The position numbers were made by a program, and so were the translations under genes. Under the pieces are notes generated by a model. That model was not told the origin of the DNA. It saw only the letters and a program-made list of their open reading frames with translations, and ran no database searches. A stretch of DNA of 64,000 bases from Methanobrevibacter sp. TLL-48-HuF1 (GTDB taxonomy: Archaea > Methanobacteriota > Methanobacteria > Methanobacteriales > Methanobacteriaceae), in NCBI RefSeq assembly GCF_023617305.1, contig NZ_CP081485.1, positions 1,664,501 through 1,728,500 of the forward strand, read 5' to 3'. Below are positions 13,688 through 64,000 of the stretch, piece after piece. Each line of letters begins with the position of its first letter. Positions within the stretch are counted from its first letter, which is position 1.

Positions 13688-15475
13688 GGGTGTCCGCCAA
13701 AATTGAATTTTGGCTGACTTGTTGATTTTTTTTAAAATATTGTTACATCAAGTTTTAATTGGTTTTTAATGGATGTGCTTTCGCAGAAATCTTCTAAATC
13801 TTCTGTTGTGTTTTTTATTTCTTGTTTTATGTTGTGTAGTCGTATTAAATTATATGCTAATGCATCTAAGTTTATTCTTTCTTCTGTTTTTACCATTCCG
13901 ATGACTACTTCTTTTTCTATTTGGAATTGTTCTTTGAATATTCCAAATGGTCCTTCAACGCTTGATCTTTTGCTATATTCGTCTTTATATTCCTGTTTTT
14001 CCATTTTTTCGTTCATTGCTTTTTGCATTTCTGATCCGTATTCTGTGATGGTTTTGTGTGTTTGTTTGCCTGTTAAGCATTTGTTTCGTGCTTTGCAGTT
14101 TTTACAGGCTTCATAATTGTTGTAGAGTCTTTTTATTTTGTCTGGTTTTTCTGGATCTTTGTGTGGTTCGATGTATTTTGCGAAAAAGTGCATATATTGA
14201 TTTTTTGGGCATTTGAATGCATCTAATTCATAATCATATTCAAAATGGTCTTTATGGTATGGATTTGGATTTAATTTTCCTATTTTTTCTTTACTTTGCT
14301 TTCTATTTGGTATTAAACCATCTATTTTTTTATCTGCTAAGTATGATAGTGATATTTGGTTTAAGTATATTGTATCGGCACTTATATACTTTGGTGTGGT
14401 GTTAATGTTTCTTATTGCTCTTTCTGCGATTATTGGTAGTTCGTAGTGGTCTGTCGGGTTTTGTGTGACGTTTATTGCACAGATTAATTTGGTATCATAA
14501 TCGACTGCAGATTGGATATTATAAGCAACCATGAAGTTTCCTTTCTTTCCTTTCATAAATCTTGCTTCTATATCATTTACTGGAATTTTATCCTGTCCTG
14601 TGAATGTAAATTGTGTTTTTATTCCATATAATAGTTCTAATTTATCTTCATCATCTATGTCTTTCTTTTCCAATAATCTTTGAGCAGGTTTGTGAAGTTT
14701 TTCAAGACATTCAGGGTCAATAGGTCGTCCTTCGTAGTAATCGATCAATATTTGAGTTTCTTTTTTTGTAATGGTGTTGTTGTTGGAATTGTATGCTTTT
14801 TTGATGGTTCCATCAATGGCAACGTGATTAAATTCAGTGAATCCTTCATCAAAGGCCTTTTTTAATGTCATTTGCAGCAATACTTCAAAATAATGGCCAT
14901 ATTCTCTTCGATATCTTTGGATTGATCTTTCAGAAGGTCTAATATCATCGCACACGTATTTAAATATATCATGGTATCGCGCCATATCTGCAATTATTGA
15001 TGTTCTATCAATATGTTGGATTTTGGCATAAATAAGCAATTTTAACATGGAATCCACTGGAAGGGAGTCTCTTCCTTTCTTTTTCTTGGGTTCTTTGATA
15101 TTTAAAAGTGGAAAAACTTCTTCAACAAATTCAACAACAAAACGAGAAATATGATTCTCCGGAACATTCCAATCAAGAGTATTAATGCCCAATTTTGCCT
15201 GATTCCTATCAAACTTTCTTTTAACCATAAATAACAACACCAAAACAACTTATATCTAATATAAAATATGTACAACAAAGTATATAAACTTAACTGTCTT
15301 AAAACCATTAAAAATCAAAAATAAGAATAAAATAAAACTAAACAATAATTTAAAAAATAATTAAACCAAATAAAATAAAATAAACAAAAATTAATTGAAA
15401 TATATTAAAAATAATAAAAATTAAGCCCAAAAATTTTTTTGACGAAAAATCAAAAATCAATTTTGGCGGACACCC
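13688..15475 (-). mobile_element. IS1182-like insertion sequence, intact
   Basis: 1788 bp, ending in perfect 19-bp inverted repeats GGGTGTCCGCCAAAATTGA (13688-13706) and its reverse complement (15457-15475). The bases just outside both ends are ATTG (13684-13687 and 15476-15479), a likely 4-bp target duplication. The single transposase gene has no visible defect, so this copy may still be mobile. A related end lies alone at 11677. Confidence 0.85.
13732..15228 (-). CDS. IS1182-like DDE transposase
   Basis: 498 residues from the ATG at 15228, which has GGTG about 8 bases upstream; a longer frame from 15243 has no better site. The order of parts is an N-terminal DUF772-like region (DSMLKLLIYAKIQ), first Asp in AIDGTIKKAYNS, NIQSAVDYDTKLI, second Asp in ISADTIYL, a Cys cluster (CPKN...CKNCKARNKC) and the Glu in SVEGPFGIFKEQF. 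These are the DDE residues of the IS1182/IS4-type RNase H fold. The gene fills the element, leaving about 45 bases to one end and 230 to the other. No frameshift or stop interrupts it, unlike the relative at 12076-13513. Confidence 0.88.
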   Translation of the reverse strand: MVKRKFDRNQAKLGINTLDWNVPENHISRFVVEFVEEVFPLLNIKEPKKKKGRDSLPVDSMLKLLIYAKIQHIDRTSIIADMARYHDIFKYVCDDIRPSERSIQRYRREYGHYFEVLLQMTLKKAFDEGFTEFNHVAIDGTIKKAYNSNNNTITKKETQILIDYYEGRPIDPECLEKLHKPAQRLLEKKDIDDEDKLELLYGIKTQFTFTGQDKIPVNDIEARFMKGKKGNFMVAYNIQSAVDYDTKLICAINVTQNPTDHYELPIIAERAIRNINTTPKYISADTIYLNQISLSYLADKKIDGLIPNRKQSKEKIGKLNPNPYHKDHFEYDYELDAFKCPKNQYMHFFAKYIEPHKDPEKPDKIKRLYNNYEACKNCKARNKCLTGKQTHKTITEYGSEMQKAMNEKMEKQEYKDEYSKRSSVEGPFGIFKEQFQIEKEVVIGMVKTEERINLDALAYNLIRLHNIKQEIKNTTEDLEDFCESTSIKNQLKLDVTIF

Positions 15476-59464: not shown

Positions 59465-60079
59465 TTAGTTTGGGAATAAATAGTTATAAATTTTATTTAT
59501 TCCAGAAAAAAATCCATTATATTCTTTATTATGTATGTTACTTATCATATCTTCGATACGGTCATCTAACTCTTTAGTATAAGTTTTGTTGTTGTAATCA
59601 TGGGTTGTGAAGTAATGAACTTCAATACTATAATTTGTATCCTCTTTTGGGAAAACATAGTTTACTCCGACATGATCCCATTGATAATCATTATCTCTTG
59701 AAGGATTTGAATAATACTGTTTGGAAACATTAATGCCTCCTAAATCAACATTTTCTTTTTTCAATACTTTAAAACCTCCAGATTCCATAGAAGCAAATTT
59801 GGCATTTGAAATGTCGGTTATACTTGATTCCGGCCAATCATCCCATACATCAATAATAGTGTAGTTGTTTGTAATTCCATTATCTGTTTTTGCTTGACCA
59901 CTAATGTTTACTTCATCTGTTGTGTTCCAAGCTTCTGGAACTACAATATTTGAATGTCCAAATTCAATGGTTTTGTCTGTATGGACACTTAAAAAATTAT
60001 TTATGGCACTCATATTAGCCACAAAAAATATTATTATAATAACAATAACAATGCTCATAAAAATATCTCTTTTTTGCAT
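59465..60079 (-). CDS. Membrane-anchored extracellular protein
   Basis: 204 residues. The N-terminus MQKRDIFMSIVIVIIIIFFVANM is a signal anchor, leaving about 175 residues outside. The outer part has two Trp-rich stretches (WDDWPESS and DYQWDHVGVNYVFP) and a likely beta fold; its shape resembles the PsbP/DcrB-like small domains of Methanobrevibacter, but no motif is firm. It begins one base before the end of the glycosyltransferase gene upstream, so it is the last gene of the signalling run and may assist or sense polymer at the surface. Confidence 0.75.
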   Translation of the reverse strand: MQKRDIFMSIVIVIIIIFFVANMSAINNFLSVHTDKTIEFGHSNIVVPEAWNTTDEVNISGQAKTDNGITNNYTIIDVWDDWPESSITDISNAKFASMESGGFKVLKKENVDLGGINVSKQYYSNPSRDNDYQWDHVGVNYVFPKEDTNYSIEVHYFTTHDYNNKTYTKELDDRIEDMISNIHNKEYNGFFSGINKIYNYLFPN

Positions 60080-60080
60080 A

Positions 60081-61851
60081 TTATTCCTCTATTCTTTTAT
60101 GTTTGGTTTTATCCCATTTTCTTTCTTTTCTAATAATCATTTTAAACATTGTTTCGAAAAATAATGGTATTAAATGGAAACAATAAATCCAATAACTGAT
60201 AATATCTTTTATAAATTTTAAAGGACCTGCTTTTTCACGTAAAAGGGCAATAGAAATTCCGGGAATAAATGCTATTGTTGAGATTATTCCTACAATAATT
60301 GGAGCATCCATTCTAATTATAGTTACTCCATGAAATATAAACCAAGAAATTGAATTTATTATACTAACAATAAATCCAAAGAATATGAATAAGTTAAATG
60401 CATAAAATGAAATATGTTCGATAATCCCGTATTTTTTTATAAGTGGTAGTGGGGATTTTAAAATTTTTGGCAAATATATGAATATGGTTTCAAAGTTACC
60501 GATAGCCCACCTTGTTCTTTGTTTAAAGAAAGACTTCCAATCAGTTACAGCTTCCTGATAAACTGCAGTTTCTCCACAATAACGTATTTGACCACCTTTA
60601 AGTAATATTTTAACGGATAGATTTAAATCTTCAGTTACTGCAAATCCATCCCATTTTTCACCATCAATAATAGCTTGTTTTTTTAACAAATTGTCCATTA
60701 CCACCTAAAAATCCACTTTTTCCTAAATTATCTTTAGCTATTAATGTATTTCCAAAACTTTCAAATTCTACATGTTGCATATTTGCAAGGAAGTTTTCAT
60801 CTTTGTTATACATTTTAACTCTAGTTTGAACACCCTGAACTTTGGGATTATTTAAATAAGGTATAACAATATTTAAGAAATCTTTTTTTACTTGGGTATC
60901 AGCATCAAAAACTCCAATTATTTCTCCTTTTGATAAATTTAGAGCATCATTCAATACAAAACCTTTTCCTTTCCCAGATTTTGGAGGTTTTCTTGTAACA
61001 ATTCTCAATATGGGAATATCTTTCTTTAATTCAGATAATTTTTCACCAGTACTGTCTGTTGAACCGTCATTTACAACAATAAGCTCAAAGTTAGGTTTTC
61101 CATTTAAAGTATAATCTATTTTGCTAATGCTGGTTACTGTTTGAGCAATAGTATACTCTTCATTATGTGCAGGAATAATAAGACTAACAAAAGGAGGTTT
61201 TTCATAAGGGATAGGTTTTTCCTGTTTTTTTGTACTGATTATAGCTAAGAAAAGCATGGTTAATGTTGGAATAAGAAGAAGCCATTGAAGCCATGTTACA
61301 TTTCTAGCTAGTATTCCGAAAATTATTAATGCACTGCAAGTCACTAGAAGAAATATTGAATTTGATTTTTCAATTAAAAGTTCTTCATTTTTTTCTTTAA
61401 TCTTATCTTTAGCATTTATTGTTTTTAGTGTGTTGATATTATGTTTTTTTACAGATACATCAATCATTCTTTCTAATTCTTCTATTTCAATAGGCTTTAT
61501 TAAATATCCGAAGGGATTTCCAGGAATTATTTCATCAATTATGTTATCAGTTATATCATCGATTATAGCTATATGGGGTATGTTTATTTTTTCAATTGAA
61601 GAAGTTATTTCACTGTAACTTGAATTATTGATTTTTGTATCTAAAAGAAGTATGTTGGGAATGTCTTTTTTTATATTTTTTACAAGTTTCTTCCCATCAC
61701 TTTCAAATCCAATTATTTTATATTTGGCATTGTTTAATGATTTATTTATAGTGGATATAAATTCATCATCATTACTTCCAATATAAACATTGGTTGTGTA
61801 ATTTTTTGTTGTTGCAATTTGTTTTATATTCTCTTTTGTTGCCGACTTCAT
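60081..61851 (-). pseudogene. Receiver-glycosyltransferase fusion, one-base frameshift
   Basis: Residues 20-125 form a response-regulator-like receiver: acidic D28/D29, phospho-acceptor D71 in ILLLDTKI, K119 in YLIKP; the usual Thr is replaced (IAIIDD). Two membrane segments follow (about 170-210), then a processive family-2 glycosyltransferase: SLIIPAHNEE, VVNDGSTDS, GVFDADTQV, GGNGQFV, TEDLNLS and QRTRW, ending in four or more membrane helices. The frame breaks at GTT followed by seven A (60678-60684 on the plus strand); six A would join GQFVKK to QAIIDGEKWDG. It could be a sequencing error, a phase-variable run or a dead gene. With an intact frame it would make a polysaccharide controlled by signalling. 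Confidence 0.85.
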
Positions 61852-61862
61852 TTTAACCCCAT

Positions 61863-62273
61863 TTATTCTGTAAACCCATATGAATCATTTATTTTCTTTG
61901 ATTCTACTTTTGATTTAGCTATTGCTATTTTTAAAGTTTTATCTAATTTATTAATGTCATATGGTTTTGAAACAAAGCCGTAAGATCCTTTTATATTTGA
62001 TTTGTTAAAAGTTTCAGTATCATTGTTTGCAGTTAAATATACAACTGCAATTCCTAATTCTGATATGACTTCACTAGCTTCAATACCACTCATACTGCCT
62101 TTTAATTTAATATCCATTAAAACAACATCAGGTAAATGTTCTGCAGCCATGTCAATTGCATCCTGACCGTTATCTGCGGTGCCGATTACTTTATAACCCA
62201 AATCTTTTAATCCGTATTGTAAATCTAGTGCAATAATTGATTCATCTTCTACAATTAATATTTTTTCTTCCAT
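61863..62273 (-). CDS. Stand-alone response regulator
   Basis: 136 residues, a CheY-like receiver with no output domain. KILIVEDESIIALDLQ gives the acidic pair, VVLMDIKLKG the phospho-acceptor Asp, VVYLTAN the Thr, and GFVSKPYD the Lys. All key residues are present. Lying between a histidine kinase (15 bases) and the receiver-glycosyltransferase fusion (12 bases), it probably relays phosphate or competes for the kinase. Such ISL-type receivers are common beside HisKA_2 kinases in methanogens. Confidence 0.93.
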   Translation of the reverse strand: MEEKILIVEDESIIALDLQYGLKDLGYKVIGTADNGQDAIDMAAEHLPDVVLMDIKLKGSMSGIEASEVISELGIAVVYLTANNDTETFNKSNIKGSYGFVSKPYDINKLDKTLKIAIAKSKVESKKINDSYGFTE

Positions 62274-62287
62274 ATTAAGTTCCTCTT

Positions 62288-64000
62288 TTATTTATATCCT
62301 ACATATTCTTGATTTATTGGAAATTTTATTTTAAATTGAGTTCCATTATTTACAGTTAATTCTAAAGTTCCGTTAATCTGTTTAATTAATGATTTAATAA
62401 TTATTGAACCTAAACTTTGCATTTTAGTATCTTTCAGCCCGATACCATTATCTTTAAATACAAATTCACAGGTTTCGTCATCAATTAATTTCATATGTTT
62501 ATATATTTGTTTATTTTTTGTATTGTCATTAAATGCATGTTTAATTGAATTAGTTGTTAATTCGTTTATTATTAATAAGAGTGGTGTAACAAGAGAAATA
62601 GGCATCCATAATTCTGAGTCAATGCATGTTATAAAATTTATGTCGTTACGTGAACTCAATAAATTATTTAATGTTTCATCTTGTTGTGTAATGGCTTCAC
62701 TTACATTTAAATTTTCAAAATCTAAACTTTCACAAGTTTGTGCATGTAAAATTGATAATGAATTTAGTCTACTTTGCATATGTTCAATGATTAATTCGGG
62801 TTCTTTTGAATATTCTCTTTTTTCCAAATTTATAAAACTATTTAATATTTGTAAGTTATTTTTTATTCTATGATGAACTTCTTTAATTATTATTTTTTGT
62901 TTTTCTATAATTTTTATATGTTCTCTTTTTTCAATATCATGTGTAATGTCAATTAAAAATCCAATAGTATGGAGTTCATTGTTCACATAAAAGTTTTCAA
63001 GTATTAATTCACAGGTTATTGGTTTTTTTGTAGTTTTATCTTTATAAAAAGTAAAAGTTTCATCAAATTTATTTATTTCCCCGGATTCCATTTTTTTTAG
63101 TTTTTCAACTACTTTTTTTTCTCCAATATGCTTATAAATATTATAATTATGAGTATATTCTTGTTTTTTTACTCCAATAATATTATAAAAGCCATCAGTA
63201 AATGAATAAGTTATGGGATTAAATGGCTCTATTAATAGTGCAAGTTTTTGAGTATGTGTAAATCCATTTAAAATATAATCAATTGGATTAAGGATATTTG
63301 AATCTAATTCTGAACTTATATCTTTAAAAAAACCATAAATTCCCATATATTCATTATTATTGTATTTTGGATATAAATTGCATTCTAAAGTTTTTATTTT
63401 CCCATTTTCAGTTTTAATCCTAATTTTTTCTTTTATTTCCATTTTTCTTGGAAGATTTTCATGCAGGGCTTTTTTAATTTTTTCTTTATCTTCTTTAAGT
63501 GCCAGATCAAAGATTATATTATAATATTTGTCAGAAGACTTTTGATGTCTTCCTAAAATATTGTATATTCCATTTGTCCAGACATATTTATTATTTGTTT
63601 TATAGTAACTGCCTGTTTGTGACATATATTCAATTAAATATAATTTATCACTTTGATTATTAATTGCAGAATTTTTAGTAATTGCTTCAGCTTCATAATT
63701 GTTAATAATGTATATTTGTCCGCTTTTTTCCATTATTATTGTAGTTACAATTAAACTTAGTATATTCTCTTCAAAATAAAGTAATCTTAATTTTTCAACT
63801 TCGCTTTTTTTATTTATAACTTTTTTAACATGTTCCTTGAATAAATTATGATAAAATGGAAGGCATTCACTAAAACGTCTTCCGAGGATATCTGTAGGGT
63901 TTATATTTAATCTTTGCAGTAATGTTTTTCCAAATCGTGTGACTATTAAATCTTCTCCATTATCAACAGGAGTGAATTGATTAACATCAGATGAAATTTG
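62288..64000 (-). CDS. PAS-domain histidine kinase, 5' partial
   Basis: 570 residues are visible and the frame is open to the window edge, so the start is outside; the ATG at 63733 is internal to a PAS-like domain. At least three PAS/PAC-like units are present, with TRFGKTLLQRLNINPTDILG, YVWTNGIYNILGRHQKS and YSFTDGFYNIIGVKKQE as similar openings. The kinase core is of HisKA_2 type, with the His in EVHHRIKNNLQ, then an ATPase domain: NELTTNSIKHAF, DNGIGL and SLGSIIIKSLIKQINGTLEL. No membrane segment is visible, so it is likely a cytoplasmic sensor. It is the first gene seen of the signalling run. Confidence 0.93.
   Translation of the reverse strand, partial: QISSDVNQFTPVDNGEDLIVTRFGKTLLQRLNINPTDILGRRFSECLPFYHNLFKEHVKKVINKKSEVEKLRLLYFEENILSLIVTTIIMEKSGQIYIINNYEAEAITKNSAINNQSDKLYLIEYMSQTGSYYKTNNKYVWTNGIYNILGRHQKSSDKYYNIIFDLALKEDKEKIKKALHENLPRKMEIKEKIRIKTENGKIKTLECNLYPKYNNNEYMGIYGFFKDISSELDSNILNPIDYILNGFTHTQKLALLIEPFNPITYSFTDGFYNIIGVKKQEYTHNYNIYKHIGEKKVVEKLKKMESGEINKFDETFTFYKDKTTKKPITCELILENFYVNNELHTIGFLIDITHDIEKREHIKIIEKQKIIIKEVHHRIKNNLQILNSFINLEKREYSKEPELIIEHMQSRLNSLSILHAQTCESLDFENLNVSEAITQQDETLNNLLSSRNDINFITCIDSELWMPISLVTPLLLIINELTTNSIKHAFNDNTKNKQIYKHMKLIDDETCEFVFKDNGIGLKDTKMQSLGSIIIKSLIKQINGTLELTVNNGTQFKIKFPINQEYVGYK

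Follow-up and report, generated by a model that had tools for sequence, protein, structure and literature searches.

A probably decayed copy, in Methanobrevibacter sp. TLL-48-HuF1, of a conserved methanogen operon with a receiver-glycosyltransferase fusion

Introduction

The cellulose synthase BcsA is controlled by c-di-GMP through PilZ. Enzymes resembling BcsA are also found fused to the receiver domains of two-component systems: in the available passages of the census of Galperin et al. 2018 (PMC5847659), one or two receivers are joined to BcsA-like family 2 glycosyltransferases (GT2; PF13641; 13 proteins), MTH_548 is cited, and the REC-BcsA and REC-REC-BcsA forms are listed from Methanobacterium, Methanobrevibacter and Methanothermobacter. 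Those passages do not treat a degenerate fused receiver, an upstream stand-alone receiver, a kinase pair, an anchored partner or a setting as the sole two-component system. Our literature searches on MTH548 and on pseudoreceivers with glycosyltransferases returned nothing past this census, and the search on exopolysaccharide in Methanobrevibacter returned nothing relevant.

We analysed a window of 64,000 nucleotides from Methanobrevibacter sp. TLL-48-HuF1 (contig NZ_CP081485.1, positions 1,664,501 to 1,728,500) and compared 25 genomes of the genus, 13 with the synthase described below and 12 without it. An earlier note on this DNA had presented the locus as its best candidate for an undescribed system; the REC-BcsA and REC-REC-BcsA proteins were published in 2018 (PMC5847659), and the architecture is therefore not new.

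Results

Gene order in the window

Adjacent coding units on the minus strand at 59465-64000 encode a kinase, a receiver, receiver-like/GT2 units and an anchored protein, the four-part cluster that the earlier note had outlined. HK2 (62288..64000, minus strand) is an intact, soluble PAS-HisKA_2-HATPase histidine kinase (Pfam HisKA_2 at 49 bits, with HATPase_c and PAS_3) that has no transmembrane (TM) helix by hydropathy; its start lies 138 bases (46 codons) beyond the end of the window, and the full-length protein in L027 has 616 aa. RR (61863..62273, minus strand) is a stand-alone canonical receiver of 136 aa with a Response_reg match of 76 bits and without an output domain. The anchored extracytoplasmic protein (59465..60079, minus strand), with one N-terminal TM helix, closes the cluster. 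The intergenic gaps are 14, 11 and 1 bases; the note had given 15, 12 and 1, of which only the last was right. In intact relatives the operon reads HK-HK-RR-(REC-TM-GT2)-anchored protein.

The synthase, which had been taken as a single intact gene, consists in the window of two overlapping open reading frames of 395 and 207 aa, parted by one extra A. The 5' part (60664..61851, minus strand) runs up to the frameshift and includes a pseudo-receiver, a long helix, a pair of TM helices and the N-terminal half of the GT2 domain, with DGSTD and DAD. The 3' part (60081..60704, minus strand), in another frame, holds TED, QRTRW and the C-terminal TM helices, matches PF13632 at 54 bits and aligns with relatives from VKK-QAIIDG onward. 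The processive-synthase motifs FDAD, TED and QRTRW and the TM helices could thus be aligned, divided between the two frames. Comparison with relatives places the frameshift in the overlap (60664..60704, minus strand), with the extra A in GTTAAAAAAACAA: the window has GTT-A7-CAA, whereas GTT-A6-CAA would keep the frame seen in relatives (e.g. L035), and the additional base terminates the first frame after ...GNGQFVKKTSYY, the remainder of the gene running on in the other frame.

Twelve other members of the genus retain the receiver-GT2 fusion, with 51-58% identity, and ten genomes carry it as a single unbroken frame of 578-589 aa, in which the receiver precedes a PF13641-type GT2 within the same chain and no such frameshift occurs. 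The fusion that the note had read from one sequence is therefore found in relatives, with its N-terminal receiver, and an AF2 model is consistent with it. In this model, which is that of the intact ortholog L047 (28 sequences; pLDDT 86.9) and not of the broken protein of the window, residues 18-115 are predicted to form a receiver fold, a single helix (120-179) runs into the membrane, and a GT-A-like domain and more TM helices complete the chain. Foldseek matches for the synthase include BcsA, hyaluronan synthase and PcManGT. An attempt to name the polymer from NCBIfam and Foldseek gave general resemblance only, to BcsA, hyaluronan synthase, PgaC and PcManGT. A search of the whole genome found no PilZ domain, in the synthase or elsewhere, as the note had said of the locus.

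The anchored protein has no Pfam or NCBIfam match. Its distribution among the 25 genus genomes matches that of the synthase exactly: it was found in all 13 synthase-bearing members and in no others. Its AF2 model (pLDDT 84.4) resembles PsbP/MOG1/DcrB-like folds, although the scores are modest (best E 3e-4; TM about 0.4-0.5).

The synthase frameshift and the broken kinase

The first kinase of the operon, HK1, lies just outside the window (L027:8687-12352) and is broken twice, by a frameshift near L027:11280 and by an insertion sequence (IS) at about L027:9222-11009. This IS encodes a 503-aa DDE transposase (DDE_Tnp_1_6, DUF772), has terminal inverted repeats GGGTGTCCGCC...GGCGGACACCC and a target duplication ATTA, and is probably IS1182-like. 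Nine identical full-length copies occur in the genome, one of them in the window (13688-15472, minus strand) and another inside HK1, which suggests recent activity.

Homopolymers are the usual place of sequencing error and slippage, and both frameshifts, in GT2 and in HK1, fall in short homopolymers. The break in GT2 might accordingly be a sequencing error, or a recoded or phase-variable site, and the system might be active in the organism; the intact state of HK2, RR and the anchored protein agrees with this. We consider it unlikely, although it deserves to be taken seriously. About 470 kb of the assembly was compared by tblastn with regions of relatives, and among the 168 gene stretches (164 kb) that could be compared the GT2 frameshift was the sole one detected; the survey missed that of HK1 because it followed the best hit per query and the relatives of HK1 match HK2 best. 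Another gene of the operon, HK1, carries a frameshift too, as well as an IS with nine identical genome copies, and the ten intact relatives have no such frameshift. A real lesion in GT2 is therefore more likely than a sequencing error. Two narrower explanations were rejected: a general assembly error does not fit 164 kb of comparable coding DNA in which no other frameshift was detected, and programmed -1 frameshifting does not fit a break that no relative shares and that would need one base to be skipped (+1), unlike the usual logic of the -1 heptamer. The lesions of GT2 and HK1 together indicate that the operon of TLL-48-HuF1 is probably inactive in its own genome, and we regard it as the probably decayed form of an operon that is conserved in methanogens.

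Active sites of the lone and fused receivers

The acidic pair of receivers is metal-binding. The lone RR of the window has the complete set expected of a phosphorylatable receiver (acidic pair E-D, Asp, Thr and Lys). In the fused receiver S-N replaces E-D and I replaces Thr, with Asp (D71) and Lys retained, so that it falls outside the receivers defined as phosphorylatable by an acidic pair, Asp, Thr/Ser and Lys; its Response_reg match (26.1 bits, E 1e-5) is also under the Pfam cut-off of 30.2. The note's reading of a pseudo-receiver that keeps D71 and Lys and lacks Thr is borne out, and the acidic pair is gone as well.

The same pattern extends to the relatives. Single fused receivers of the Methanobrevibacter type have S-S, S-N, G-S, S-A or S-Q in place of the acidic residues, replace Thr by V or I, and keep Asp in all cases and Lys in most. 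In the Methanosphaera-type branch (L065, L072, L075, L077) the fused Asp is lost, and Lys too where readable, and the operon is kept. At the single-receiver loci of both types a canonical lone RR lies upstream of the synthase. The tandem REC-REC-GT2 proteins (Methanothermobacter-like genomes, G028, G021-type Methanobrevibacter, L071, L076 and L080) have the acidic pair, Asp, Thr and Lys in every receiver with four readable sites. Two exceptions were found: L079 has a single fused receiver with a canonical site, and in L071 a lone RR adjoins the tandem protein. Because the acidic pair is gone, and because Asp is also lost in the Methanosphaera-type branch, phosphorylation of D71 in the single-receiver form appears unlikely; the lone RR upstream is more likely to be the phospho-acceptor.

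Two-component repertoire of the genus

Only two receiver domains were found in the genome, RR and the fused one, and RR alone is full-scoring. HisKA_2 is confined to the synthase operon, and two of the three HATPase_c matches are the operon kinases; the third falls in a frame of 576 aa that we take to be a putative topoisomerase VI B. Exactly two receivers are present in 10 of the 11 genus genomes with the single-receiver form (G017 has three), and the two genomes whose forms are tandem or broken have three (G011) and five (G021). Among the 12 genomes without the system, 11 have no receiver at all and G005 (a metagenome-assembled genome, MAG, 77% complete) has one. Some gut methanogens would thus have one sole two-component system, in one operon with a membrane synthase, judging from gene content. 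Two genomes, G010 and G023, have two HisKA_2 matches each and no receiver domain genome-wide, so their kinases are without a visible partner.

The note had asked whether the architecture always neighbours a HisKA_2 kinase; this holds for Methanobrevibacter-type loci but not across the order: the Methanothermobacter-like tandem genes examined adjoin PolX, and that of G028 adjoins a CobN-like gene. Beside the G021-type tandem synthase and anchored protein we observed a protein of about 206 aa (L064:3458-4075, L068:7717-8334, L069:3396-3998) that matches the kinase core only and is possibly a sensorless kinase. In the Methanothermobacter-like genome G035 the tandem gene (L046:6753-8924) is also split across several frames, which is either an error or another case of independent breakage.

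Phylogeny of receivers and synthases

In the glycosyltransferase tree all receiver-bearing synthases fall in one clade (99%), adjoining receiver-free GT2s, and in a pattern-limited scan they were restricted to Methanobacteriaceae. A bacterial origin of the fusion was rejected, the nearest bacterial GT2s (Bacillota, Armatimonadota, Cyanobacteriota) having no receivers. The operon of L066, titled a Bacillales MAG, is nearly identical to that of the uncultured Methanobacteriaceae archaeon L065, and L066 is probably misbinned.

The receiver tree unites the pseudo-receivers in one clade (99%) and places every lone RR from a single-receiver locus with receiver 1 of the tandem proteins of the gut lineage (98%); the trees leave the branching order inside the gut clade unresolved. 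The simplest reading of these trees is that a tandem protein, of the kind in which two receivers and GT2 share one chain in G021-type genomes, underwent fission and that the receiver remaining on the synthase then decayed. Since the pseudo-receiver has a long branch, its origin from receiver 2 is judged by its position in the protein. The dN/dS of the pseudo-receiver (about 0.02-0.12) indicates purifying selection and not free drift.

Discussion

A possible switch of the synthase

Given a pair of kinases, an RR that lacks an output domain and a synthase that bears the sole other receiver, a signal would most probably pass from kinase to RR, pseudo-receiver and helix. In intact relatives the two soluble PAS-HisKA_2 kinases would sense a cytoplasmic signal and pass phosphate to the stand-alone RR; phosphorylated RR would then bind the fused pseudo-receiver, in place of the receiver-receiver contact of the REC-REC-GT2 ancestor, and this contact would be relayed along the helix of 60 residues between pseudo-receiver and membrane, so that synthesis of a polysaccharide or other glycan is switched post-translationally. 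The anchored protein may work outside the membrane, on the product or on the synthase. We give this scheme of phosphorylation and docking about an even chance of being right. Several points count against it: residual phosphorylation could occur, since the pseudo-receiver of the Methanobrevibacter branch keeps Asp and mostly Lys; the proposed origin of the pseudo-receiver from receiver 2 is read from position; L071 and L079 make the receiver pattern imperfect; and RR could have a target without a receiver domain. The wider evolutionary proposal, held a little more tentatively, is that gene fission moved the phospho-accepting receiver off the synthase, that the remaining receiver became a phospho-dead docking site, and that the sole two-component system contacts one membrane enzyme and not transcription.

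Alternatively, the pseudo-receiver may be merely a structural or dimerisation module, with RR acting elsewhere and the kinases exerting no control over the synthase. Such a role would suit its sequence, which is less conserved than any other part of the protein, and the closest GT2s in bacteria function without any receiver; we nevertheless find it improbable, given the full co-occurrence and adjacency of the genes, a genome that offers RR no other receiver partner, and tandem proteins in which the enzyme and two receivers form a single chain. Also unlikely is a third possibility, that kinases or RR pass phosphate to the conserved Asp of the fused receiver and so switch the synthase directly, a control plausible for the canonical tandem relatives and in line with the Asp of all, and the Lys of most, Methanobrevibacter-type proteins, but set against the loss of acidic pair and Thr in every Methanobrevibacter-type copy and of Asp in the Methanosphaera-type branch, where the operon is kept.

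The receiver-synthase fusion, so far met in the literature found only as a census entry, gains a testable mechanism from these data, and it would be a non-PilZ route of direct control over a BcsA-like synthase. The loci offer an evolutionary series, from tandem canonical receivers through a lone RR with a pseudo-receiver that keeps Asp to a pseudo-receiver without it, and in genomes with this two-component system only, its role could be tested free of cross-talk. For gut and rumen methanogens, a surface polymer that can be switched would matter for attachment to partners and surfaces.

Comparison with known systems

By the description in the available passages of the census (PMC5847659), the protein of the window is a member of the REC-BcsA set by architecture, with the same domain order and lineage, and differs from it in being frameshifted. 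Three features appear new: a degenerate fused receiver paired with a canonical upstream RR, as against canonical tandem receivers; RR and the fused pseudo-receiver as the only receivers of a genome; and an anchored protein in exactly the synthase-bearing members of the genus.

With BcsA, which is among the top Foldseek matches, the synthase has in common the membrane GT2 fold, DxD, TED and QxxRW; for control, however, the methanogen enzyme carries a receiver-like domain, and PilZ was not found in the genome. The intact ortholog L047 scores far below the CelA equivalog cut-off (71 versus 699 bits). The best-scoring named GT2 family is PgaC/IcaA poly-beta-1,6-GlcNAc synthase (130 bits, ortholog residues 210-561), also far below its equivalog cut-off of 422 bits. 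The signalling genes recall PhyR/PhyK, in that a HisKA_2 kinase adjoins a lone receiver and that PhyK and PhyR rank among the top NCBIfam matches of kinase and receiver, but the scores are far under the cut-off, the methanogen RR has no sigma-like domain, and the output of the methanogen system is probably an enzyme.
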